A model generated the notes under the pieces. It saw only the letters and a list, made by a program, of their open reading frames with translations. It was not told where the DNA came from and did not search any database. Below are positions 3,015 through 54,028 of a stretch of DNA of 54,028 bases, one piece after another (position 1 is the stretch's first letter; each line of letters opens with the position of its first letter). The translations under genes were made by a program, and so were the position numbers. Source of the DNA: a virus; the IMG/VR virus record IMGVR_UViG_3300006754_000024, positions 1 through 54,028 of that record. One strand, written 5' to 3'.

Positions 3015-3269
3015 ATGTCCGATATGAAGCTCAATCATCCCTTACTCGTCCTAAGCCTCACCCATGGAATGGGGAAAATGCGGTCTCTCACCGATCCGTC
3101 GGTATGGGGGAACCCTAAACACGACGCTTTTCTGGGATTCATCGAATGGGACGCGCCCAAGCAGGAGGCGGCCGGATGGTACGAGCTCGGCAAAGGTGCG
3201 GACATCCATATCGTCGATAAGGGCCGACTCCGCTCCGTCCTATTCCAGATGTCAGGGGGCCAGGCATGA
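3015..3269 (+). CDS. Small soluble protein of unknown function, 84 aa
   Basis: It is preceded by AAAGGAGAAACG, a good ribosome site. It has no membrane segment and no recognisable motif. Its stop overlaps the start of the adenine methylase gene (ATGA at 3266-3269), so the two are probably co-translated. I make no functional claim. Confidence 0.65.
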   Translation: MSDMKLNHPLLVLSLTHGMGKMRSLTDPSVWGNPKHDAFLGFIEWDAPKQEAAGWYELGKGADIHIVDKGRLRSVLFQMSGGQA

Positions 3270-3796
3270 GTACGGCCTGGCGCACGTTGTTTCGTTCGGA
3301 GGACCAGGCGTGGAGGACTCCCGCGTGGCTCTTCGACGAGCTCGACTCGGTTTGCGACTTCGAGCTCGACGCCAGTGCCCATCCCGACAACGCGCTATGC
3401 ACTGAGTATCTCACCGAGGAAGATGATGCTCTCGCACGGGACAGCTGGCCAGGCGAGCGGATCTGGCTCAACCCTCCGTATGGGCGTCAAGTAGGCCTCT
3501 TTGTATCCAAAGCATGGGAGCAGTCGGAGCTCTACGGGAAACGAGTCGCGGTGTTGATCTTCGCTCGGACGGATACGGCCTGGTGGCAGGACTTCGCGAT
3601 GCGAGCTCGAGCCATTTTTCTGATACGCGGCCGGCTCCGGTTCCACAAGGCAGACGGAGAGAGGCACGCGGCACCGGCTCCCTCGGCACTTCTGATCTTT
3701 GGTCCGAGCACGGGAGAGCCTACCCAATTCTATGCCTTCGATCGACGCAACCCGGAGGAGTGGAAGAAGAGCCTAAGACAGCACTTTCGAGGTTGA
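3266..3796 (+). CDS. dam: Phage-type DNA N6-adenine methyltransferase (Dam family)
   Basis: A 176-residue protein with the layout of the short phage Dam family: an N-terminal WRTPAWLFDELD segment, FELDASA (cofactor-side strand), then WLNPPYG at about 67-73, the catalytic (D/N)PPY motif for exocyclic amino methylation. The family transfers a methyl group from SAM to adenine. No cognate restriction enzyme lies next to it, so it is an orphan, and its recognition sequence cannot be read from the protein. Likely roles are protection from host restriction or marking of phage DNA. Confidence 0.88.
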   Translation: MSTAWRTLFRSEDQAWRTPAWLFDELDSVCDFELDASAHPDNALCTEYLTEEDDALARDSWPGERIWLNPPYGRQVGLFVSKAWEQSELYGKRVAVLIFARTDTAWWQDFAMRARAIFLIRGRLRFHKADGERHAAPAPSALLIFGPSTGEPTQFYAFDRRNPEEWKKSLRQHFRG

Positions 3797-38658: not shown

Positions 38659-38849
38659 GGGTTGGCTCCTGTAGCTACAGATGGTGCCACAGAGAATAAC
38701 CCTTCTCCCTTGACCGAACCAGGCCGAAGGTGTGAAGGTTATCGCGGGTGACGGTTCACTGGGCAAACAGGTTCGGACCACACTCACCGCACTCAACGCA
38801 CAGTTTTTATCCAAAAACGCCGCACCCACCCTTTTCACAAGGAGCAAAA
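38659..38849. promoter_or_regulatory. Divergent regulatory region before the capsid genes
   Basis: A 191-base gap without a gene. It holds the 12-bp palindrome CTGTAGCTACAG (38669-38680), which covers the ribosome site of the regulator gene, a TTGACC box near 38711 and an imperfect repeat GTGACGGTTCAC. AAGGAGC just before 38850 is the ribosome site for the core protein. A promoter for the capsid genes is expected here but no -10 box is convincing. Confidence 0.55.
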
Positions 38850-40154
38850 ATGGCAACTCGTCGGTATTCACGGCGACGGCGCAACACAGGCGCTCTGCTC
38901 GTCAACCCACGCCGTCGGCGTCGGACCAGGAAGAAGAGGACTAGCGCGAAATCGCTACTCTCCCGCCTGCGCCGTCGCAAGACCACAAGTAGCAAACGCA
39001 AGCGCAGTGCAGCCGCGAAGAAGGCAGCAGCCACCCGGCGTCGCAACGCGACTCGTCGGAGCAACGCTGCCAAGCGTGCCGCTCGCACTCGTCGCCGCAA
39101 CGGAACCAAAAGGGGCCAGCGTCGCCGTACTGCTCGCCGGGCATACACCCGCCGCCGTAACGGTACAACTCGAGGGATGCGTCGCAAGACCGCTCGCCGA
39201 GCGTATACCCGTAGACGGCGCAATACTGGAGTCATGACAGGGATTCAGCAGAATCTCAAGAAGGTTCCAGTCGTTGGTGGAATGCTGAGCGATATCGTTG
39301 GGCTCGGTGTCCCTGCCGCGTTCGGTGCTATCTCGATCCTTCCGATCGAAATGGGACTGAAGGCCGGTGGACGGTACCTCCCCGAGAAGCTCCAAGCCGT
39401 TTCCTTCACCGTCGGAGGCCTCCTGATGGGTGCCCTGGCGAAGAAGTTCCTTCCCGCCGGGAAGTTCCGGGATCAAATCAGTGTCGCTCTCGCGACTGCT
39501 GGTGGTGCCGTCGACTTCTACCGCTGGCGACAGGGGCAAACCACAGTGGCGGCAATCGAAGTCGCTGAGGCTGCGACGGCCGGGTTCGGTGAGCTCGAAG
39601 TCATGAGCGGCTATGGTGAGCTCGAAGTCATGAGCGGATACGGTGGTGGCTACGGTGAGCTCGAAGTTATGAGCGGATACGGCGATATGGGGTACGATGT
39701 CGTAAATTTTGATGTAGCGGGGGCTGGCACTTCCCTCGGAGCGTATCTTAGTGATGCTTCGATGGCCGATGCCTATTATTCTGGGAGTGATCTGGGCGCC
39801 GCCGAGCGTACAGCAGCACTGGCCGGTCCTCGCCGTTTCATGCGCCGTTTTCCATCTCCGGGACGTAGGCTTCACCGCCTACGTCAAACCGGTTCTTCCC
39901 AATCCCAGCCCTCGGCTAACGCCGGGAAGCCGGGATGTGGGAAGAAGTGGATGATATGTCTCGTTGGGTTTGACAACTTTCAGAAAATTGCAGCTCTCCC
40001 CACCAAGGAGCGCAGACGGGTTATCCGTTCTCTGAAGCGTCAAGCCAAACAATCTCTTCCTGATATGCTCTCGACCGATGATTCGATGGATCCAAATACA
40101 GCGATGGATTCTACCGAAGGGTTCGGAGCCCTCATGTACGCTGGTGGCTACTAG
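38850..40154 (+). CDS. Arg-rich core protein with membrane region and decapeptide repeats
   Basis: A 434-residue protein after AAGGAGCAAAA. Residues 1-130 are protamine-like, with repeats of TARRAYTRRRNGT and one VNPRRRRR. About 145-235 is Gly-rich and hydrophobic, containing two or more possible membrane helices. Then GELEVMSGYG occurs three times (39588-39680). The end is Ser/Pro-rich, then helical. The basic head should bind DNA and the middle a membrane, so a major internal virion protein is likely. From about 39.2 kb the codon use shifts to GGT/GCT/GTT. Confidence 0.72.
   Translation: MATRRYSRRRRNTGALLVNPRRRRRTRKKRTSAKSLLSRLRRRKTTSSKRKRSAAAKKAAATRRRNATRRSNAAKRAARTRRRNGTKRGQRRRTARRAYTRRRNGTTRGMRRKTARRAYTRRRRNTGVMTGIQQNLKKVPVVGGMLSDIVGLGVPAAFGAISILPIEMGLKAGGRYLPEKLQAVSFTVGGLLMGALAKKFLPAGKFRDQISVALATAGGAVDFYRWRQGQTTVAAIEVAEAATAGFGELEVMSGYGELEVMSGYGGGYGELEVMSGYGDMGYDVVNFDVAGAGTSLGAYLSDASMADAYYSGSDLGAAERTAALAGPRRFMRRFPSPGRRLHRLRQTGSSQSQPSANAGKPGCGKKWMICLVGFDNFQKIAALPTKERRRVIRSLKRQAKQSLPDMLSTDDSMDPNTAMDSTEGFGALMYAGGY
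39588..39680 (+). repeat. Three copies of a 27-30 bp coding repeat
   Basis: GGTGAGCTCGAAGTCATGAG begins copies at 39588 and 39615. The third, at 39654, differs by one base (GTT for GTC) after a 12-base insert. They encode GELEVMSGY units. The near identity indicates recent duplication, and each copy carries one GAGCTC. Confidence 0.9.
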
Positions 40155-42200: not shown

Positions 42201-42607
42201 TGCCTATTTTGGCCGATATCTCCCAAGCTGGGCCACCCGCCTCGAGTGGGACTGCCACCTGGTACCAGGAAGTCCTTCTCAACGCAGGCGGAGCTTTCAA
42301 CAGCCAGGCCTTGATGGTGCCCGCGCTCCCCGCGCTCACCTTTTGGGCTGAGGTCTTCAATGCGGGTGGCGTCGCCGTTACGCTTCAACCTCAGTTCGCT
42401 GCTCGAGGAACGACTAATGTGGTCTTGGGACAGCCCAACCCGGTTCCCACCTGGTTAGACCTGGCTCCGCCCGTCCTGATCCCCGCGTTCGGTGGCGGAG
42501 TAACTCTCAACAACTACATCTGCCCGTGCGTCTGGATCCGGATGGTGCTCACTCGAACCGCCGCCGTAAACACCAGTGTCCGCCTCTACATGGCTGGGAG
42601 CGTGTGA
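42200..42607 (+). CDS. Beta-rich virion protein, 135 aa
   Basis: A compact, strand-rich, low-charge protein (TFWAEVFNAGGVAVTLQPQF, WIRMVLTRTAAVNTSVRLYM), resembling a small jelly-roll subunit and similar in feel to the 109-residue protein at 14880. Starts by TAATG overlap and ends by TGATG overlap with the 862-residue gene. Last of the four beta-rich genes. Confidence 0.55.
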   Translation: MPILADISQAGPPASSGTATWYQEVLLNAGGAFNSQALMVPALPALTFWAEVFNAGGVAVTLQPQFAARGTTNVVLGQPNPVPTWLDLAPPVLIPAFGGGVTLNNYICPCVWIRMVLTRTAAVNTSVRLYMAGSV

Positions 42608-45195
42608 TGCCTGGCTACAAGATCGTCCTTCGCAAAAACGGAGCCAAGCGTGGAGAGCTCACCGGCTACGCCACCAAGAGCTCGGCCGTCGCAGAGGCTC
42701 AGACCCTCGCTGACAGCGCCGGAGGCGGAGTCAAGGTGTACGTGGAGCCGGTGAAGGCCAAAGCCAACAGGAAGGCTCCCAGGCGTCGAAATACGCAGTT
42801 AAAAAGGGACCAGAAGGTAAAACTGAGCGATTCCGCTCTCTCCCGGAGGTACTCTGGCGATCGAGCTAAAGGAAAGCAGTGGCGGGGTACTATATTTGAA
42901 GTGGTCGGACCGCCAGGAAGTGGGGCGGGAGAATGGGGAGCCGAGATGTGGTCCGCCAACGGAGAAAAGGGGTACATCGTCGTAAACCAAACGGATCCTC
43001 ATGGGAGGTGGTACGCATTAGGAGATGTGGTCGCCGCATCCACCGCCACTAAGAAGGCTCCCAGGCGCAAGAAGAATAGCGACAGAGAGCTCGTCGCCTT
43101 CCCCGGAATAAGGAGGCCATCGGACTATCCGGGAGGAAAAAACAGCTACGACGAGGACTTCTTCCAGGGATACCGGGCCGGAGAGAAGGCCTTGGCTCGC
43201 AAACGCAAGACCCCTCTTTCGGGGGTGGACGCCGAGAGGTACTTTCGCAGGTATGGACATGGGCATGGTAGCTGGTGGATCAACGGATTCCGTGCCGCTA
43301 TCGCTGTGGACCGTGGAGAATATGCGACGAAGGACTACAAGATAGCGGTAAAGGTGGGCCTGGTTCATCCTCCGGGACGTTTCAATCCTAAGCGGAAGAA
43401 CAGGAAGACGAAGCACCGTCCAGGAAGCGCGAAGACCCCAGCTGGTTTTCTCTCCACCGAGGGCCAGAAGCTCGTGGTGAGGTCGAATATCACAGGGAAT
43501 ATCCTTCCTAAGAGCTGGACCGGGTTCGCTTTCAGCTTGGACGGAGACTCGGTCATGAAGATCGGGCGTTCGGGGGGCGAGCGTTCCTACGAGGTGGCCA
43601 AGCGGATTCGGAGATCGAACACCAGGAAGAACCCGACAACGGCCGAGGTCGCCAAGCTCGCAAAATGGCAGAACCTAACTGGGCTCTCGAAGTCGAAAAT
43701 CGACAAGCTCGCACAGGAAGCCTATCGCATGGGCGATGTAGGCCACATGAGCACGCTCCAGCTCGGGAAACACTTTTCTCGGTTCCTCCCCGCCAAGTCG
43801 AAGAGCACGCACACCAACCTGAGAGGATGGGGAGACTTTCTCTTCGAGCTCGGATGGTTGGAGCTCCCGCACCTTCCGCGTAAGAACCAGGGCTATGATC
43901 AAACCAAAAAGGTTCTTCAGCAGGCGTCTAAACTCATCGACCAGGGCAAATTCAAACAGGCCGATTCCTTAATCCGTGGTTCGGGTGGAAGCAGGGCAGA
44001 CCTATCGAATATTTTGGGCTCGTCCAGAATGAAGAAGATGGCAACCTGGGCTAGCGGTACCACCAGGCGGAAAAACTATTCGACTGGCGACGCCTGGCTC
44101 CAAGAGGCCGACACGGAAATGGAGGAGGAAGGCACCGTCGGAGCCTTCACCAAGCAGGCCAGGCGAGCCGGGTACAAGGATACAATGGCCTTCGCTCGAG
44201 CCGTCATGAAGGGCTGGCGGAGCGGGAAGAAAAAGGTCTACAACAAGAAGACCAGAAAGCAGCAAGGGATCACCCAAAAAACGATGTACCGGGCCAACTT
44301 CGCGATCAATGCTCAGAAGCGGCGGAATCCCCACGGAGCGCCCCAACGCATGACAATGGACCTGGGCGAATTCAGGTGGATCGCTGGCCCCTACTCGACC
44401 GTCGGGAAGGCAAACAAGGCGAAGGAAGCCTCTCACCATCGATCCTGGGGCGCCAGGTACCCCAAGACCTACACGCGCGTAAGGAAGGAAGGAGGCGCCT
44501 ACCATGTCTATTCTTACGATCCAGAGGTTGCCTCTCGTTACAACCCAGCATGGGGCGAGATGGCCGGCGCGGTAGGAAAGGGGCTCGGAAAGGCCGGCAA
44601 AGCCGCCTGGAAGGGCGCCAAGCGAGGAGCCCAGTACGGCTACGAGTACGGAAAGGAAGGAGCCGCTCGCGGAAAGGAGACGGCACAGGCGGCCGTGATC
44701 GCTGCCAACCTGAAGGACTTTCAGAGATGCGCCAAGAAGCTCCACATCACTCCGGGAGAGCTCCAACAGCTCGAGCCCTATGTCGACGCCATCGACAAGG
44801 CGCAGGCCCATATCGAGTCGACCCAAGAACGGCGCTCCTCGAGGGGAGCTCAGAGACAGACTGCTCTCGCCAAGAAATGGAACGGGAAGCGTCGGAATTC
44901 AACGCCTGGAAAACGTGGGTGGCACCCGGTACTTTTCGGCTCGAATCTGATAATCTCAGGTGTCGGCCGGGATACGAATGGGAACAAGGTCATCAAAGTT
45001 AGTTACCCCAACTCGAGAGCCTGGTCGATCCAGACTCTCGGAACGCCGATGCACGGGCTCTTGCGGGGCGTTACAGCGAGATATGAAATCCTGCCGGACA
45101 TCTCGAGCGCCATCGAGCCCATGCTCATCGACCACATCCGAAAGTACGGATCTGCAAAGCAAAAGAAGGGACTACGAGTCTACTCCGGCGGGTAG
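42607..45195 (+). CDS. Modular basic 'polyvalent-type' protein, 862 aa
   Basis: ATG 42607 is fixed by TGATG overlap. The protein is a chain of small domains separated by basic linkers with Asn-Pro or similar: KAPRRRNTQ, KAPRRKKNS, GRFNPKRKN, TRKNPTTAE, QKRRNPHGA, RYNPAWGEM and GKRRNSTPG. Domains include an N-terminal KIVLRKNGA unit, an SH3-like strand region, several helical units and a Gly/Lys/Tyr-rich segment after NPAWGEM. No catalytic motif is visible. The architecture fits a virion-borne modular protein that may enter the host with DNA. Confidence 0.7.
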   Translation: MPGYKIVLRKNGAKRGELTGYATKSSAVAEAQTLADSAGGGVKVYVEPVKAKANRKAPRRRNTQLKRDQKVKLSDSALSRRYSGDRAKGKQWRGTIFEVVGPPGSGAGEWGAEMWSANGEKGYIVVNQTDPHGRWYALGDVVAASTATKKAPRRKKNSDRELVAFPGIRRPSDYPGGKNSYDEDFFQGYRAGEKALARKRKTPLSGVDAERYFRRYGHGHGSWWINGFRAAIAVDRGEYATKDYKIAVKVGLVHPPGRFNPKRKNRKTKHRPGSAKTPAGFLSTEGQKLVVRSNITGNILPKSWTGFAFSLDGDSVMKIGRSGGERSYEVAKRIRRSNTRKNPTTAEVAKLAKWQNLTGLSKSKIDKLAQEAYRMGDVGHMSTLQLGKHFSRFLPAKSKSTHTNLRGWGDFLFELGWLELPHLPRKNQGYDQTKKVLQQASKLIDQGKFKQADSLIRGSGGSRADLSNILGSSRMKKMATWASGTTRRKNYSTGDAWLQEADTEMEEEGTVGAFTKQARRAGYKDTMAFARAVMKGWRSGKKKVYNKKTRKQQGITQKTMYRANFAINAQKRRNPHGAPQRMTMDLGEFRWIAGPYSTVGKANKAKEASHHRSWGARYPKTYTRVRKEGGAYHVYSYDPEVASRYNPAWGEMAGAVGKGLGKAGKAAWKGAKRGAQYGYEYGKEGAARGKETAQAAVIAANLKDFQRCAKKLHITPGELQQLEPYVDAIDKAQAHIESTQERRSSRGAQRQTALAKKWNGKRRNSTPGKRGWHPVLFGSNLIISGVGRDTNGNKVIKVSYPNSRAWSIQTLGTPMHGLLRGVTARYEILPDISSAIEPMLIDHIRKYGSAKQKKGLRVYSGG

Positions 45196-45201
45196 TTCGG
45201 A

Positions 45202-48200
45202 ATGATCGAAGAACTCAAAAAGCGGATACGGAACGCTGGCACAGAGAGCTCGGAAAAACGAGAAGTACAGCGCGAGCTCGAGAGCCATGGACACCGGAAA
45301 CATCCAGAGTCCCACCAGGCCACCCTCGAAGACCGCAGGGTGGTACGCATGTACCTATGGAGGGCTACCCCGCTGGGGCACCTCTGCCTGGTTACCGGTC
45401 CCAGCGTGGAGCCCAGTCTCTACGAGCTCTACGAGGCCGCTCCAGGAGAAGAGCCCTCAGAGGTTTACTTCCCTTCAAAGCGAGGCAAGCCGGCTCTCAC
45501 CGTTCGCACGAATCCCCAGGCCCGAGTAGGCAAGGTCCGAGAGGCTAAGGACGGTAGCAAATACGTGCTTTGGAGGCCCGTATTAGCGGACGGCAGCCGA
45601 CCTCGCGTGTATCTGGACGCCGAGGAGCCGGGGATTGACGCCGAGCTCATAGATGTGATGGAAGCTCAGGAACAGCTGGCAGCTGGAAAGAGAGCGGTGG
45701 AGCGTCGCGTAAAGGAAGCCAAAAAGGAAGGGAAGCGGGGTATTTTCAAGGGAGGCTCCGGACGGAAGATCATAACTGGAGCTCCGAAGGCTAAGCCCAT
45801 GGAGCGGGCCGCCTCTCGCACGCCTCTTTTTGACTCTGAGGGAAAGGAATATCTCGCTACATATATGGTAATCCCAGCCCACAGGGACGGGATGGGAGAC
45901 CTTCGATCCTCGAACCTACCTGGTTCCTTCGAGGAGACTCCCCACTACCCCACCGTCTTCCAAGCCCGAAGCCTACAGCGACTCGGAGAGACGCGGAAGA
46001 TCGAGAAGATTGCCGCCAACCTGGACGCGGAAAGAGTTCTCCTCCCGCACAGCGATGCCACCCTGGGCACCCCGGTGGTCTGGGAGGGAGACGATAAAGA
46101 GCACAGAATCGCTGGAGAGCAAGTCTATACCCCGAAAGGCACCTACTATGTGCTGGGTGGGAACGGACGAGCAATCGCGATCCTGATGGCCCCCACGGGG
46201 AAATATCAGTCCTACTCGAGACGGGGAAGGTCTCTCTGGTCCGACGTGTGGCCCGCTGGGAGCTCTCCAGCTGGCACGAGAGACGTTCTGGTCCGCCTGG
46301 CCACCAAGCCCGACGGAACGCCACTGTCCTTCGCTCAGGCCCGTACTCTTGCGGGACGAACCCAGAAGAGCGCTTCTGGAGAAGAGTCTCCCATCGGAAA
46401 GGCTCTCTCGCTCATCCGTTCACTCGGCATCGAGCGCGTGGCCGATCTCCCGCCTTTTGTCTGGAAGGGGATAATCACCCAGGACAATGTGGAAGAGTTC
46501 CAGGAGTTCAATCCAGCCTTTGCGAGAGCGGTGTTTGCTTCGATGGGGGCAGCTCGAGCAGAGAGCTACCAGCAGGACTCGGCGCTTCTCGCTACGCTCT
46601 TCAACGACATTATGGTCGGCTACCTTCCCAGGCGCTTCCAGCTCCAAGGGTTCGTTTCTGAGAAACAGGAGCGAGCTCTACTCGCCGCTCTTCCTATTAT
46701 CGTCGCGATCCACCAGGGAGTTCAGGATCGATCGGTCCAAGACAAATGGGACCTTTTCCCGTTGCTCGATGCGGCTTCTCGTTTCGCCCAGGCAATCAAG
46801 AACAAGTCGGATTCGCAGGCGATTGCCATGGTCGAGGCCGCTGCCTCTCAGATTCAGATGGGCGAAGGCACGGGAATAGCGGAGAAGTTCAAGTCTCTGT
46901 TCGACGAACTCCCTCTCTTGGGTGTTTTGTTCGGCCTGGTCCTCAAGAAAGCAGAGAAGTCTCGCGACCCGGCATTGACGGTAGAGAAATACCTCACCCC
47001 CTACGCTGCCGCAGCATTCGATCCCGGAGAGAGCGCTGCCCAGTCGGGACTGTTTGCGGCTCCAGGCCGTCCCGATGCCGGCAAAGACCCCACCGAGATC
47101 CTTGCTACCGAGCTCGGCGTCCGCCTACCGCGCCGGATGCGCGAGGCGACGGTGGAGCAGGGGCGGTTGATCGCGAATCCCAAATTCCCCATGGGAGGAG
47201 AAAAAAAGCCGTGGGCTCCGGCGATGGTCGAGGCCATCGACCAGTTCCCGGTGGGCGCCATCGTCAAGCTTCGACCAACGCAGGGGTGGAGTCGCACATT
47301 CCCTCATCGGATCCTCTCCGATTCCGTCCTCGATAACCACTACCGGGTCGGAACCCACACCTGGATGGAGAACCTCCAGAGCGTATTCCTGGAGACGGAC
47401 CCCGTACACCCTGAGACTCACGAGCTACTGAGGGATAGTCGTGGTGGCAAGTACAACTACCAGGTGCTCGGTACCGAGGATGTGGAGCTCGTCTGGAGCC
47501 CAGAGCCAGAGCCGGACCCGGAGGAGAGCCAACAACGCCTCTTGAACCGGAAAGGACAGCTCCGCTTGCGGAAGGCCGGGAGCAGGATCCTCGAGGAGCT
47601 CTACCTACGCGGCCCTACCCCCTACGCTGAGACTCCCGAAGGAAAGCTCGCTGATGGACCGCAAGAGCTCCTCGATAAAGGGCTGGCGTCGAAGAAGACG
47701 TGCATCGCAGCTGAACATACCCTTTACGACCGGGAGACCTGTGTTCTGCGCCTGACGAAGAGGGGAAGGGACTACGCGAAGAATCGCCGTAGAGCCGAGC
47801 GCACGCACCAGGCCGCCAGGCAGGGGAAGCTGTGGAACAAAGGCCCCCACTATTTCGATGAACTCGGAGAGCTCGGAGCTCCGTCGATTGGTGAGAAGGG
47901 GTACAAGCCGGCTCCCGATTTCGGCAACGCCTACGGAGGGCAGACACCCTACGAGCTCGCGGACCGCCTGGTGGGGAACGCTGAGGTATTGATGGAAGAG
48001 CCCGAGCTCTACTGGGCCTACTGTGCCGAGCTCCCGGAGGCTTGTGGAGGCCTGGCCGATTCGGATTTCTCCTTAGCGGATATGCTTCAAGTCCCTTTTT
48101 CCGGTCCGGACGGAAAGCGAATGACTGAAGCGGAGCGGGCGGGAATTGCGCTTTCTGCCCTGGCCGTCACTGCGGAAGCGCTGCCTGACAGGTGGAGCGG

Positions 48201-51200
48201 AGAGAAGATCATACTCGGCGAGAGAAAGAGCAGGAAGGGACCCACTACCTTGATCGAGGCTCGAAGAGGCGACTCCGGGGAGGTTCCGATGTGGGCTGCG
48301 ACTGCGGCCCTTACCGACTGGCTGGCCTCGCTGGTTCCCGGCTATTCCCAGGTCTTGCGCCTGGTTAACATCGACAAGAAGACAGCACAGGACTTCATCG
48401 AGAAGCACCACTCGGCGCTCCCCTACCTAAACGCTCGTGGCCTGCTCTTTGCCCTTGGATTGATGAAGGGCTCCCGCCTGGTGGCCGTAGCGACGGTTAA
48501 CTCGAATACGGCCAACCTGAGCAAGACCCGTAGGGTATTGAGCGGCGAGCTCGACGTGAAAGATGTCCTCGAGCTCACCCGTGTGGCATCGGATGGGAGC
48601 GTAAAGGGGGCTGCGTCGAAGCTCGTGGCCCGTGTGATCGATATCATGGAGCAGGGCAAGCGGAGCGGAGGCGACGCACCCGCGCTCCTAATGACTTACC
48701 AGCTCGCTACCGAGTCTGGAACGACCTACAAGGCCTTGAAGGACAAGGGATTGAGGCCCGTGGCAGAGGTAAAGGGCTCAGCTCCGAGCGGAGCTCGTGG
48801 TGGAGACCCGGCCGAAGACCGAGCTCTGGCACAGGTGGACAAAATACGATGGGAGTGCTGCGTCGACCCTCCCGCGATGCGGGCGGACTGGGACATCCTG
48901 GGACGCGAGCAGAAGACTCTCTGGAACCCGAAGGAAGGGGAAACCTCCTGGTTCAAGGGGGATCAGGTTCGATTCACGGGTGCCCAGAGCGAACATGATG
49001 GGTTCTGGCAGGCCGTCTATATTGACGGGCACCGGAAAGGCCAGATCGTCTGGGTCTACCCTGAACATGCAGGCGTTCGGATGCTCCACGGAGAAGAAAA
49101 ACTCCAGCCCCGCGACAATCCGAAGAAGTCTCCGCCTGGCTCCTTCAAGTCCTGGGAAGAATACTATCTGTGGAAGATGAACGGGATCAACAGAGCCATG
49201 CTGATCACGGAAGACGCTATCCGAAGCATGGACCCGGAGCGAGCCAACATGCCCGGTGGCGCGGTGGCCCACTACCGCACCCTCGAGAAGAAACGCCGCG
49301 ATCTCCTCGAGCACATGGAGCTCGCAGGGGTGAAGCTCAGGAACCCCGGAGAGCCAGAGGACCGGTTCGCCCCCTTCCTGAACGCAAAGGTGGGCCAGGT
49401 GTTTCTGGTTAGGGCTACGGACTATCCTGGAGCTCCGAAACGGAAATGGATGAAAGACACGCTGCTGGCCTATCGGGTCTACAAAAAGCCCGATATCTCG
49501 GCGGTCGCGCCCTACCTTATCGACCCGGAGGGCGCTGAGATCGAGGTCGAGCCGGTAGGCGGCACGAAGGGACGCGACGGAACCTTCCTAATCCGACCCA
49601 ATTTTGAGAAAGATAAGCTCCGCACTATGATCCTCCTCCGGGATAAAAACGGCCACCATGTGACGGGGCACCCCATCGAGTTCGTCCGCCATGCTGCCGG
49701 CCACTTGGATCTACCCGCTGAGAGCTCGGGCCAGACGGTGATGTTCAACCCCGAAGAAGCACCCGGCCAGGTAGAGTTCGAGTTCCTGGGAGCGGTGCCC
49801 GTTCTTCACTTTGCCTCTGGGACGAACAGGCCTGGAAGTATCCGGGGATTCGCAGACCTGGGCAAAGCCGTGGGCTCTGCCTTCGCCTCTGTAGACAAAA
49901 AGTCCGGCCGCTGGGTTCGCGAATGTCGCGGACCCTGTCTCGAGGAGCTCGCTCGAGCCGCTTCGTTGGGTATACCGGTGTTTCTGGATTCAGGTGCATT
50001 TAGCGAGGTCGACTTCCCCGAAGACGGTCCGCCAGTTGTAGCGGTGCCCATACCAGAAGAGAGCTGGGCCGAGAGGTTCGATGTCTATCGTTACCTGGCC
50101 GACGCGGGAGGGAAACTGGCCAACGTGGTAGCGCCCGACATGGTAGGCCACCAGGTGGAGAGCTTTCAACGCCTATCCGCCTACAAAGACGAGGTGAACG
50201 AGCTCCTGGATATGGGCGCATCGGTTCTCGTGCCGCTCCAGTTAGGCCCGATTCCGCTTCACGAATATCACGACCAGGTCGACGAGCTCCTGGGCCGGAA
50301 GGACTGGATCCCAGCTCTTCCGTTCCAGAATGCGGCTACCTCCCCTACGCAGCTGGGAGAATACCTGCGCAAAAAGACTCCAGTTCGTCTTCATCTCCTG
50401 GGAATAGGACCCAGGAAGAAAGCAGCTACAGCCGTGGCTCAAGAGATCAGAGAGAACTCTCCGGGTACCCAGGTACAGATGGACAGTGTGGTGATCAAGG
50501 CGCACGTAGGGCGCAAGAGACGGAAGACCGGAGATCCTCGAGGGGAGATAACAGCTGCTCAAGACGAGGCTCGAGAGCAGCTGCTCGAGGAACGCTACAT
50601 CGGCTCCCAGCGAGAGTCCGTTCCTGACTACACGGACCTGGTAGGAATGCCGAGCTCCTGGGCATCCGAGGCGGCACTGAAGCGACTCTCGAGTGCGGCC
50701 CAACTCTCGAGCTCGGAGCGGAAAGAGCTCATCGCCGACCCCGACGAGTTCTTCCAGCGCGAAACCTTCGCTGGCATCGATCACGGGATCCCGTTCTACC
50801 TCGAGCTCGAGCAACCTATTGAGCTCGAGCTCGGTAAGCGTTTCCACTCTCTCGAGACTTTCGAGGCCCAACGCATGGGAATCCGAGAGGGGCTCAAGGG
50901 AATCTACCCAGGGGGCCAGGAATACATTACCAACCCGGAGCAAGAAGAGGGGCACGTTCCGGGAATCGACACTCCGGGACATCCCGGACTTCAGATGGGT
51001 CTTTTCGGTGGTGCATCCTATTCGGACGAGCAAACCGCATCGCCTGGCAGAATAACTATCTTGAACATGGGACTTGGCCGCGACTCGCTCACCATGCTCT
51101 GTCTGCTCGCAGATGGAGAGCTCGTCTGGGACGGTAAGAAACACGGACCCGAAGACGTGGACGCCGTCGTGTTCTCCGATACAGGCGGAGAATGGAAGCA

Positions 51201-52722
51201 CACCATGGACCTAATTCCGAAGGTCGAGAAGTTTGCCAAGAAGCACGGCATCCGATGGCTCAACCTTCAGAAGCCACAGGCAGGCACTAAGAGCGGAGAA
51301 CTACGCGACAGCTGGCTCCAGGCCATGAAAACAGCGAGACAAGATCGAGAGCAAGGATGGGCCGAAGTATATCGGGAAGTGATTGCTCCGATGTACCGCG
51401 AAAAAGATGTCCGGCTCGATGAGATCCGCGCCGAAAAGAAGGCGGAGATCAAAGAGAAAAGAGCCGAGCTCAAGAACCAGGGAATGGACAAGGATCAGAT
51501 GGCACCGGAGCTCGACGCTATCAGAGAGAAATACGCCGTCAGGATGAAGGCTCTCAAAAAGAAGTACAAGGCCAAGGCTGCGGAGATCAAAAAGGAAGGA
51601 GGATTCGCAGGGAAGGCGGAGCGTGCGTGGTGGGCTCCTCAAGACAAGGAGCGGAGGCTCCACTATGGCACCATCGAAGAGCGAGCGGCTGCGGGTGTCT
51701 ATCACTTGCGCCCTGAGATCCTGGTGGACTTCGCCTGGAAAGGAACGATCCCCCTCCGCGACGATAAGAGCTGCACGGGAAACCACAAGGTGGCTCCGAT
51801 TCGGAAGGTGACAGAGGACCTGGCCATCGAAAAGTTCGGCCCATGGGCTACTAATACTAAGTGGGGGAGCGAGGTCCGTGACAAGAAGCGCCTTCCTCAC
51901 TTGAATCTGATCGGTCTCGCCGCCGACGAAACTGACAGGCTCGCGAAAGGGGGAGACGTGGGCTGCTTCGAGGCGAGCTACGTTACCGAGGCCTACCCGT
52001 TGGAGGAGATGGGAATCGCGAAAAACGACGAGCAGCCCTATCTCGATAGCTGCGGATTCGGAGAGACTCGAAAAAGCGGGTGCTGGCTGTGCCCCTACCA
52101 ACCTCTCGGATGGTGGTGGGCGCTCTCTGTCCTTCATCCGGACAAGTTCGAGCGGGCAGCACAGGCGGAGTACCAGGCGACACTCCGGGATCCAAAGCTC
52201 TATTTCATCGGACGCAAGAAGAAGGGGAAGTCTCTGTCGCTGGCCGAGGCGGTAAAGGTATGGAGAGAAGAGAATCCAGACGCCTCTCCGGAAGAAGTGC
52301 TCGACAAGCAATATGCAAAGTGCAAGGTGAAGTTTGGGAAGAAGAAGAACCCAGTAGCACCCGACTCCTGCTGTCCCGACTGCAACCGATTCGTGGACCT
52401 ATGGAACCAGTTCGGAGAACCTGGATGGCTAGAACGCTACGGCTCGAGCTCGAGCACCAGGCCCAACACTCCGGCGTCTGGGGTTCTCGTCAACACGGGA
52501 AGCAAGCTGTCGATTCAAAGCCTTTCCTTCGATCGAGCTCTATTCAACAAGACCGAGGCGACGCGCTGGGCCAGGCAGCACGGGTTTTCGGTTCCGAAAG
52601 TCCACCTGACACCGAACCTGATTAAGATACGCCAGACTCATCCCTCCAAGTTCAAGCGCGGATCGTTCCGAACCAAGTCACTGACAGAAGGAGTAAAGGC
52701 AATTGTAGGAGTTCCACGATGA
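45202..52722 (+). CDS. Giant polyvalent protein with DNA-base-modification domains, 2506 aa
   Basis: Domains in order: DdrB/ParB-like with GGNGRAIAI (about 213-600); winged helix (about 782-870); Mom/XF1762-like acyltransferase (about 1047-1224, with FIEKHHSALPYLNARG); two unknown units; DpdA/TGT-like base-exchange domain (about 1526-1773) with FLDSGAF, Asp1596 as in TGT DSGGFQ, and VAPDMVGH, Asp1646; PAPS-reductase-like PP-loop domain (about 1950-2330) with NMGLGRDS (1955-1962), FSDTGGEW and Cys2191, 2294 and 2297, interrupted by a coiled-coil insert; and a C-terminal domain ending GSFRTKSLTEGVKAIVG. Asn-Pro motifs mark many boundaries. Likely delivered with the genome to modify or protect DNA. 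Confidence 0.78.
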   Translation: MIEELKKRIRNAGTESSEKREVQRELESHGHRKHPESHQATLEDRRVVRMYLWRATPLGHLCLVTGPSVEPSLYELYEAAPGEEPSEVYFPSKRGKPALTVRTNPQARVGKVREAKDGSKYVLWRPVLADGSRPRVYLDAEEPGIDAELIDVMEAQEQLAAGKRAVERRVKEAKKEGKRGIFKGGSGRKIITGAPKAKPMERAASRTPLFDSEGKEYLATYMVIPAHRDGMGDLRSSNLPGSFEETPHYPTVFQARSLQRLGETRKIEKIAANLDAERVLLPHSDATLGTPVVWEGDDKEHRIAGEQVYTPKGTYYVLGGNGRAIAILMAPTGKYQSYSRRGRSLWSDVWPAGSSPAGTRDVLVRLATKPDGTPLSFAQARTLAGRTQKSASGEESPIGKALSLIRSLGIERVADLPPFVWKGIITQDNVEEFQEFNPAFARAVFASMGAARAESYQQDSALLATLFNDIMVGYLPRRFQLQGFVSEKQERALLAALPIIVAIHQGVQDRSVQDKWDLFPLLDAASRFAQAIKNKSDSQAIAMVEAAASQIQMGEGTGIAEKFKSLFDELPLLGVLFGLVLKKAEKSRDPALTVEKYLTPYAAAAFDPGESAAQSGLFAAPGRPDAGKDPTEILATELGVRLPRRMREATVEQGRLIANPKFPMGGEKKPWAPAMVEAIDQFPVGAIVKLRPTQGWSRTFPHRILSDSVLDNHYRVGTHTWMENLQSVFLETDPVHPETHELLRDSRGGKYNYQVLGTEDVELVWSPEPEPDPEESQQRLLNRKGQLRLRKAGSRILEELYLRGPTPYAETPEGKLADGPQELLDKGLASKKTCIAAEHTLYDRETCVLRLTKRGRDYAKNRRRAERTHQAARQGKLWNKGPHYFDELGELGAPSIGEKGYKPAPDFGNAYGGQTPYELADRLVGNAEVLMEEPELYWAYCAELPEACGGLADSDFSLADMLQVPFSGPDGKRMTEAERAGIALSALAVTAEALPDRWSGEKIILGERKSRKGPTTLIEARRGDSGEVPMWAATAALTDWLASLVPGYSQVLRLVNIDKKTAQDFIEKHHSALPYLNARGLLFALGLMKGSRLVAVATVNSNTANLSKTRRVLSGELDVKDVLELTRVASDGSVKGAASKLVARVIDIMEQGKRSGGDAPALLMTYQLATESGTTYKALKDKGLRPVAEVKGSAPSGARGGDPAEDRALAQVDKIRWECCVDPPAMRADWDILGREQKTLWNPKEGETSWFKGDQVRFTGAQSEHDGFWQAVYIDGHRKGQIVWVYPEHAGVRMLHGEEKLQPRDNPKKSPPGSFKSWEEYYLWKMNGINRAMLITEDAIRSMDPERANMPGGAVAHYRTLEKKRRDLLEHMELAGVKLRNPGEPEDRFAPFLNAKVGQVFLVRATDYPGAPKRKWMKDTLLAYRVYKKPDISAVAPYLIDPEGAEIEVEPVGGTKGRDGTFLIRPNFEKDKLRTMILLRDKNGHHVTGHPIEFVRHAAGHLDLPAESSGQTVMFNPEEAPGQVEFEFLGAVPVLHFASGTNRPGSIRGFADLGKAVGSAFASVDKKSGRWVRECRGPCLEELARAASLGIPVFLDSGAFSEVDFPEDGPPVVAVPIPEESWAERFDVYRYLADAGGKLANVVAPDMVGHQVESFQRLSAYKDEVNELLDMGASVLVPLQLGPIPLHEYHDQVDELLGRKDWIPALPFQNAATSPTQLGEYLRKKTPVRLHLLGIGPRKKAATAVAQEIRENSPGTQVQMDSVVIKAHVGRKRRKTGDPRGEITAAQDEAREQLLEERYIGSQRESVPDYTDLVGMPSSWASEAALKRLSSAAQLSSSERKELIADPDEFFQRETFAGIDHGIPFYLELEQPIELELGKRFHSLETFEAQRMGIREGLKGIYPGGQEYITNPEQEEGHVPGIDTPGHPGLQMGLFGGASYSDEQTASPGRITILNMGLGRDSLTMLCLLADGELVWDGKKHGPEDVDAVVFSDTGGEWKHTMDLIPKVEKFAKKHGIRWLNLQKPQAGTKSGELRDSWLQAMKTARQDREQGWAEVYREVIAPMYREKDVRLDEIRAEKKAEIKEKRAELKNQGMDKDQMAPELDAIREKYAVRMKALKKKYKAKAAEIKKEGGFAGKAERAWWAPQDKERRLHYGTIEERAAAGVYHLRPEILVDFAWKGTIPLRDDKSCTGNHKVAPIRKVTEDLAIEKFGPWATNTKWGSEVRDKKRLPHLNLIGLAADETDRLAKGGDVGCFEASYVTEAYPLEEMGIAKNDEQPYLDSCGFGETRKSGCWLCPYQPLGWWWALSVLHPDKFERAAQAEYQATLRDPKLYFIGRKKKGKSLSLAEAVKVWREENPDASPEEVLDKQYAKCKVKFGKKKNPVAPDSCCPDCNRFVDLWNQFGEPGWLERYGSSSSTRPNTPASGVLVNTGSKLSIQSLSFDRALFNKTEATRWARQHGFSVPKVHLTPNLIKIRQTHPSKFKRGSFRTKSLTEGVKAIVGVPR

Positions 52723-53084
52723 CTAACTTTCCCACGGTATGGATGGATACAATCTGCACGGGCAACCCGGCCCAGGTTCTCCGTCTATACATGCCGAATG
52801 CCGTACTCGTTCCGACCTACGATCCCAAGGTTCTCCGGGGCCATCCCGAGCTCCTGGCATATTTCAATCGCTTTATGGCAAAGGAAGGTCTCTGCGGAAA
52901 GATTCAGAGTACCTTTGTCCAGGATGTCGGGAGGGCGAAAGTCTTGAGCGGACTCTACAAATTCCAGTTTATCGAGGATGGGATACCGAAGAGCGTAAAT
53001 GCGCGATATACCTTCGTTATCGTTCCAACTCGCGCCGGGTGGAGGATTGCCGAACACCATTCATCCGAGGTACCCGACGAATGA
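52719..53084 (+). CDS. NTF2-fold protein (SnoaL/CaMKII-association-domain type)
   Basis: A 121-residue single domain. VWMDTICTGNPAQVLRLYMP, DPKVLRGHPELLAYF and a strand-rich end with WRIAEHHSSEVP match the NTF2-like cone fold of SnoaL, DUF4440 and CaMKII-association families. These bind small hydrophobic ligands or assemble rings; some are enzymes. Phage examples are unusual. It is ATGA-coupled on both sides to modular protein genes, so it may be a separately encoded module of the same system. Confidence 0.72.
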   Translation: MTNFPTVWMDTICTGNPAQVLRLYMPNAVLVPTYDPKVLRGHPELLAYFNRFMAKEGLCGKIQSTFVQDVGRAKVLSGLYKFQFIEDGIPKSVNARYTFVIVPTRAGWRIAEHHSSEVPDE

Positions 53085-54028
53085 GTATCCGAAAAGTCAA
53101 GACCGTTAAGGGATTCACCATCTGGAGGAATACCGACTGGGACGAATACATAGTTACTCCGCCAGGCACAACGAAGCCGAAGGAAGACGAGACGGCTCCC
53201 AGCTGGTACCACACGGATGATAAGCAGGACGCATTCGACACTGCGAATGCGATGGCAGGAGATCATCCCGGAGCCTGGCGAGAGAACCCGAAGGTCCATT
53301 CCCAGACCATCGATCACTGGCTGAATATGATTGACCCGAAACACGGAGTAACCCGCAAGTCGTTGAAGTCTATGGCGGATATGTCGCGTAGGCTCCACGA
53401 GGATCCGAAACGTGTAGGGGAATATTTCTCGGATTATCTCCGTGATTTCCCTTATGGAAAGGACAAAAGGGCGGAGGATTTCGGGAAGTTCCTGCACTCA
53501 TGGGGCGACGTTCCGAGACGTAGGAATCACCACCTGGTCAAAGGCGAAGAGGCGAAGCTCTCGAACGAATATATGGCCTGGCTCAAGAAATATGGGTCCG
53601 AGCACTACTCGGCTACGGAGCTCGAGACGCGGATCCAATCCGCTCCTCACGACGTATTCGAGGTGATCGAAGTCCATCCACACGGGTACACCGTTCTTTA
53701 CGAGCACCCTTTGAAGGAGGAATTCTATTCAGACGAAGCCCTTGTTTCGGCCTCGAGCTCGAGTCGGAATTGGCCTGGCGACAACTACAAGGGCCAGACT
53801 CCTTCCGACTTTCTGCTCCAAGGCGCGAAGCGAAACCCGAAAGTGAAGGTTCGAGCTCACGCTCGAGATCGGCCTGGTTCAGTTAAGGTGCGAGCTCACA
53901 AACGAGGGCGCCCCGAGCCCGAGCTCACCGAAGAGGAGGCCCATATCCTTTACAAGCTCGGAGCAGCAATCGAGAATTCGGGAGATCCCGACGCAACCCT
54001 GGTGTTTTATGAAGACGAAGAAGAATGG
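53081..54028 (+). CDS. Third modular basic-NP protein (3' truncated)
   Basis: An open frame runs from ATG 53081 (ATGA overlap) past the window end, giving 316 residues so far. It carries the same linker motifs as the two preceding giant genes: WRENPKVHS, VPRRRNHHL and AKRNPKVKV, plus HSWGDVPRRR, which echoes the WGDxG motif. GAGCTC tandem runs encode a Ser tract near 53750. Between linkers are small helical domains I do not recognise. It is probably another virion-delivered polyvalent protein. Confidence 0.72.
   Translation, partial: MSIRKVKTVKGFTIWRNTDWDEYIVTPPGTTKPKEDETAPSWYHTDDKQDAFDTANAMAGDHPGAWRENPKVHSQTIDHWLNMIDPKHGVTRKSLKSMADMSRRLHEDPKRVGEYFSDYLRDFPYGKDKRAEDFGKFLHSWGDVPRRRNHHLVKGEEAKLSNEYMAWLKKYGSEHYSATELETRIQSAPHDVFEVIEVHPHGYTVLYEHPLKEEFYSDEALVSASSSSRNWPGDNYKGQTPSDFLLQGAKRNPKVKVRAHARDRPGSVKVRAHKRGRPEPELTEEEAHILYKLGAAIENSGDPDATLVFYEDEEEW

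Follow-up and report, generated by a model that had tools for sequence, protein, structure and literature searches.

A giant phage polyvalent protein with a DpdA-like domain and a recurrent candidate module for DNA-base hypermodification

What is the function of a phage protein in which domains of the kind used in DNA-base chemistry appear joined in one chain of 2506 residues? The question is raised by an open reading frame in IMG/VR record IMGVR_UViG_3300006754_000024, all 54,028 nt of which were analysed (hereafter, the window). The window is a contig fragment with few recognisable structural genes, and the greater part of its late region cannot be recognised. It carries an integrase, an endolysin-like gene, a helicase, a Sak4-like gene and a DNA methyltransferase (3266-3796; phrog_111, 2.2e-47; shorter than the profile), and its source is therefore a phage, which is probably able to integrate. 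The frame of interest, P0001, lies between two others:

42526..45195, + strand: upstream ORF P0002 (889 aa), with the same basic-Asn junction motifs as P0001 (sequence motifs)
45202..52722, + strand: ORF P0001 (2506 aa), candidate polyvalent protein
52739..54028, + strand: downstream ORF P0003, truncated where the contig ends; carries RNP and VKVRAHxR tags

A check of the window's frames bears out the original prediction of a single polypeptide: P0001 begins with ATG and continues for 2506 codons with no internal stop. Neither tblastn against phages nor a locus search with the whole protein matched it as a whole, and no near relative of it was found; P0002 had no family match. With several disparate catalytic domains on a very large phage chain, P0001 fits best among the phage polyvalent proteins, the class of Iyer 2017 (PMC5512222).

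The domain that matters most to its interpretation was originally called DpdA/TGT-like on the basis of two motifs, DSGAF at residue 1596 and APD at residue 1644, both of which are where they were said to be. As no HMM library searched (Pfam and PHROGs included) matches this domain, the assignment from sequence by itself amounts to a motif guess. PDB sequence searches with P0001 and with the profile of the DpdA-like family returned nothing, and tblastn against the phage collection did not find the domain either. The DNA pattern for VAPDxVGxQ matches the window once and 100 shuffles not at all; in IMG/VR it finds 33 loci, 25 of them with clear homologues at about 30-40% identity. Profile searches list 48 viral loci, plus 10 bacterial or MAG loci. 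The family thus defined, absent from Pfam and PHROGs, has 50-plus members, and in a 53-sequence alignment there is essentially no variation at D1596, D1646, H1731 or D1761, and hardly any at Q1680. The domain and its key residues are:

49786..50916, + strand: DpdA-like domain, predicted DNA-guanine transglycosylase (alignment, AlphaFold model, 7ui4 match, hhalign)
49987..50001, + strand: DSGAF motif with D1596, putative general acid/base (52 of the 52 sequences with a residue there)
50128..50139, + strand: VAPD motif with D1646 (53 of 53; pattern unique in the window)
50392..50394, + strand: H1731, counterpart of the DpdA-characteristic His196 of phage 9g DpdA (53 of 53; aligned to HAFG/HGFG)
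50482..50484, + strand: D1761, predicted nucleophile at the TGT D280 position (53 of 53; aligned to CDSS of phage DpdA; structural ranges)

The barrel itself spans residues 1529-1800, and a C-terminal helical extension, judged by eye in comparison with two relatives (L107 and L111), runs to about 1905. We take D1596 to occupy the position of TGT D102, and D1646 presumably occupies a D156-like position. H1731 aligns with residue 196 of 9g DpdA, where HGFG begins; this histidine (in 9g numbering) is conserved in DpdA and not in DpdA2 (PMC6884629). Many members of the family are solo proteins with a common N-terminal domain (RYxLRxxGRxYPSKAILGVAxGL...FFGGA; L005, L020, L034 and L023), and two (L111 and L024) have an extra domain (VPCGNAK.../VGCVKTK...RDLY...) ahead of the DpdA-like domain.

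Structure and profile comparisons take the assignment further. The AlphaFold2 model of the domain, built with 22 sequences, is a confident TIM barrel (pLDDT 92.4, pTM 0.88). Foldseek alone ranks many unrelated TIM barrels near TGT. With VIA-align, run on Foldseek's own candidate list for this model and for the PP-loop model discussed below, the best match is DpdA itself (7ui4; Z 13.7, rmsd 3.6, 197 residues); the other entries among the best 50 matches are all TGTs, at Z 12.3-13.2 and so tied with 7ui4 within about 1-1.5. The match to 4l56, which ends with model residue 235 on chain residue 282, puts D1761 on the nucleophile of TGT, residue 280 (PMC3660597), if the last three positions are ungapped. 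In hhalign, the family matches a profile of nine phage DpdAs, CAjan and 9g included, at 90.5% (E 1.4e-6), with DSGAF aligned to the DSGAFS of CAjan/9g and with the His196 position and the nucleophile Asp also in register, while two unrelated control profiles give 0.1% and 0.4%. Against a TGT alignment the family scores 0.7%, which is not significant; since bona fide DpdA likewise fails there (1.4%), this miss is no argument against DpdA identity. The DpdA of CAjan has been shown experimentally to be required for dPreQ0 in CAjan DNA (PMC6884629). In sum, a homologue family with invariant catalytic positions, a TIM-barrel model, the 7ui4 match and the match to the phage DpdA profile establish that the DpdA-like domain of P0001 is real, and the profile and model comparisons support placing it with the DNA preQ0 insertase DpdA.

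Ahead of this domain lie two others:

47809..48321, + strand: conserved, unnamed domain immediately N-terminal to Mom (aa 870-1040; own HMM)
48337..48906, + strand: Mom/XF1762-like GNAT-type acyltransferase domain (aa 1046-1235; HMM matches, subfamily alignments)

HMMs support the acyltransferase as originally named, through a Mom-like profile (phrog_1384; aa 1050-1178, E 7.5e-9) and the XF1762 profile (NF045478; aa 1054-1218, E 1.7e-8, below its curated cut-off). PF25680 also matches (E 3.1e-3), P0001 staying under the curated cut-offs. The subfamily to which it belongs shares 40-60% identity, and one member, L084, passes the XF1762 cut-off (53.9 vs 50). The preceding domain has no match in the HMM libraries, and an HMM made from it matches directly upstream of Mom in 7 of 17 Mom loci.

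The third enzymatic domain follows the barrel:

51022..52353, + strand: PP-loop ATPase ('PAPS reductase-like') domain (aa 1941-2384; HMMs, alignment, model)
51070..51087, + strand: PP-loop GLGRDS (aa 1957-1962; GxGRDS invariant in the alignment)
51772..52092, + strand: cysteines C2191, C2294 and C2297, possible Fe-S ligands (invariant alignment columns)

The alignment comprises P0001 and four other phage copies. The phrog_424 PAPS reductase HMM matches residues 1941-2350 (E 5.6e-13) and the SspD HMM residues 2233-2349 (E 7.5e-9). Foldseek alone gives the model (pLDDT 74.6) no PP-loop match at a useful E-value; VIA-align matches PP-loop proteins at Z about 8-9, with QueH, NcsA, PAPS reductase, YcfA, GMP synthetase and LarE tied within 1 Z. 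Unrelated coiled coils match as well, through the model's long helical insert. The original PP-loop call stands on the invariant GxGRDS, phrog_424, SspD and structure matches that fit a HUP-type fold; these matches favour no subfamily and give no preference to the Dnd-type or the QueC-type. The three invariant cysteines would suit an Fe-S sulphur-transfer type such as NcsA or LarE.

The remaining domain of the original prediction is near the N-terminus:

45955..46221, + strand: DdrB-like ParB domain (aa 252-340, GNGR at 320-323), marginal (PF18763)

PF18763 gives E 9e-4, and 1.9e-6 in a one-record search. The match is thus present, yet at 19.9 and 23.4 bits it stays under the gathering score (27.6) in two separate searches. 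A dedicated search for relatives of this region found none, and ddrB-ParB is above its cut-off in 6 of the 25 contigs searched.

Between the recognised domains P0001 has a further peculiarity. Asn-Pro, often after basic residues, occurs 10 times against 3.5 in shuffles (p 0.002). Asn-Pro/basic junction sites, at residues 104, 659, 1242, 1306, 1381, 1516, 1911 and 2383, fall mostly between domains, and basic-basic-N motifs are enriched in the ORFs at 38748-40154 and 42526-45195 (p 0.001). Processing sites or packaging tags are a possible explanation. Each of five related phages (L115, L107, L076, L102 and L109) repeats a short tag of its own in several ORFs, frequently in the stretches between domains; examples are VKAHxRKTxKGITQVKxHQRK, HGGRLHxETRTDxRGRTExRW and HKYxRRxGTPGHYxYxYDEP. 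These could be sites of virion loading, cleavage or recombination.

Do the three enzymatic domains belong together? A search with the Mom subfamily only gave 17 loci in 11 groups, with a DpdA-like domain in or near 8 of the 11, or in 5 of 8 once the three groups behind the Mom query are left out; partial, weak matches (L104, L105 and L110) are within the count. The arrangements vary. One ORF of L107 has PP-loop (about 626-790), DpdA (880-1128) and Mom (1393-1579), an order unlike that of P0001. Elsewhere Mom and DpdA share an ORF with the PP-loop in the preceding one (G018), Mom and two PP-loop regions share an ORF with DpdA in another (G024), or the three are in separate ORFs (G052). In L084 (8558-12088), a single chain runs C5-cytosine methyltransferase, DpdA-like, Mom. 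In L061 (9989-14466), a solo DpdA-like gene adjoins QueE (TIGR04349, 2.5e-83) and QueC (PF06508, 8e-30), and a Mom gene (PF25680, 5e-31) lies 2.4 kb away, which makes this locus a natural test bed for the chemistry of the family. Because the trio recurs, and because a solo member sits beside QueE, QueC and Mom, the suggested joint link of the three domains to DNA-base modification is supported. As it is found fused or split in unrelated phages, the trio probably serves as a transferable set of tools by which phage DNA is chemically disguised. Among isolates, no cultured phage with the fused trio was found. Most DpdA-like genes have neither Mom nor the PP-loop nearby, and DpdA is missing from some contigs of the Mom subfamily; the parts can therefore work apart.

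The idea that the machine is self-contained finds no support. No gene for QueC or QueD was found in the window (among 48 viral contigs, the window included, QueC is found in two and QueD in none), so the base or its precursor would have to come from elsewhere, imported or host-made.

We estimate at about 0.68 the probability that P0001 is a polyvalent protein and that its enzymatic domains form a module for DNA-base hypermodification, hypermodification being the likeliest function; the module is best read as a recurrent, previously undescribed one. We infer its substrate, order of steps, product, virion delivery and anti-restriction purpose along the following lines. The DpdA-like barrel would replace guanine in DNA with a 7-deazaguanine-type base, forming a covalent intermediate at the aspartate D1761. 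At the expense of ATP, the PP-loop domain would activate a group on that base or add sulphur or nitrogen to it, and the Mom-like acyltransferase would cap an amino group, whether of the new base or, as a separate reaction, of adenine. The ParB-like region and other small domains may aid DNA handling. By analogy with P1 DarB/DdrB, P0001 may ride in the virion and guard incoming DNA in cis; the polyvalent architecture and the P1 Ddr/Dar precedent (PMC5512222) would suit such delivery and a counter-defence role. In its most specific form, the proposal is a co-injected single-chain line that uses host preQ0 and acts on incoming phage DNA, passing from DpdA to the PP-loop (activation or thiolation) to the Mom cap. 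It would leave a hypermodified 7-deazaguanine, an undescribed base, and be a non-methyl counterpart of P1 DarB. We regard this full version as unlikely.

The domains may instead be independent payloads of a mixed arsenal, packaged together without forming an assembly line: 7-deazaguanine from DpdA, acyl-adenine from Mom, and transfer of sulphur or another group by the PP-loop. Polyvalent proteins typically combine unrelated activities (PMC5512222), P0001 and L107 have their domains in different orders and PP-loops of different subtypes, and many members have only one or two of the parts. The Mom subfamily and the DpdA-like domain, however, keep company in 8 of 11 groups, both fused and split, which exceeds the expectation from random shuffling; we hold this alternative to be a tentative one that deserves attention. 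That the target is RNA, with a TGT-like barrel working on tRNA of the host or the phage and a PP-loop that thiolates or aminates it in counter-defence or a takeover of translation, is improbable. TGT, NcsA, YcfA and QueH are indeed among the structural matches, but the best match is the DNA enzyme DpdA, the His196 equivalent is present, the profile match is 90% to phage DpdA vs 0.7% to TGT, and there are fusions with a C5-cytosine DNA methyltransferase and with Mom.

An effector that makes no protective DNA mark, its domains degrading or tagging nucleotides or host macromolecules after injection, appears just as improbable. It would fit the proposal that DdrB-ParB senses or degrades NTPs (Iyer 2017; PMC5512222), and a close BFVD homologue (31% identity, E 7e-16) bears the name ART-PolyVal-like domain protein; against it, the residues for base exchange are strictly kept and the L061 gene has QueE/QueC neighbours. 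Lastly, an assembly chimera or a chance joining of separate genes might be suspected of a protein known from one metagenomic contig, when the searches turned up nothing close to the whole of it. Given the continuous frame, and similar fusions in several independent contigs (L107, L076, L084, L111 and L115), we reject such an artefact as very improbable.

With the hypermodification reading, the module brings a PP-loop enzyme together with 7-deazaguanine insertion and Mom-type acylation, two modifications that have been studied separately. Its product, should there be one, would be a new base in DNA, and the DNA might be protected at entry instead of during replication. In a survey of jumbo phages, Mom and deazaguanine systems are listed apart from each other (PMC7824862), and we found no description of the DpdA/Mom/PP-loop combination in the open-licence literature, an absence that is weak evidence.

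How does P0001 compare with known systems? It resembles the polyvalent proteins and P1 DdrB/DarB (PMC5512222) in its very large chain, disparate domains and DdrB-ParB-like region. Related proteins carry InPase, C5-MTase and ART-PolyVal, the first and last of which are on record for the class. It differs in its Mom, TGT/DpdA, PAPS-reductase and 7-deazaguanine domains, which the main text of that paper does not mention, and, unlike the class, has no MPTase or SNF2 domain that we could find. With the phage 7-deazaguanine clusters (PMC6884629) the likeness is in the company that DpdA keeps: established phage DpdA genes have ParB-like and QueC-like neighbours in the actinophages Sour and Finch, and ParB in Mufasa8. 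Those clusters consist of separate genes with biosynthesis of the base, whereas P0001 is one chain without it. With phage DpdA (9g, CAjan; PDB 7ui4) the domain has in common the barrel, DSGAF, the His196 equivalent, the nucleophilic Asp and the profile match; it differs in being fused into a giant protein, invisible to Pfam and PHROGs, with no local QueC/QueD found. The PP-loop domain shares the PP-loop and the CxxC tail region with phage PAPS-reductase-like proteins (phrog_424) and SspD, and departs from them in its long helical insert and three invariant cysteines. Finally, the Mom-like domain has HMM matches over its length in common with the Mom/XF1762 family, yet belongs to a subfamily of its own, with HHS, RLVAVAT and ELTRVASDG motifs, that resides in polyvalent proteins and is linked to DpdA.
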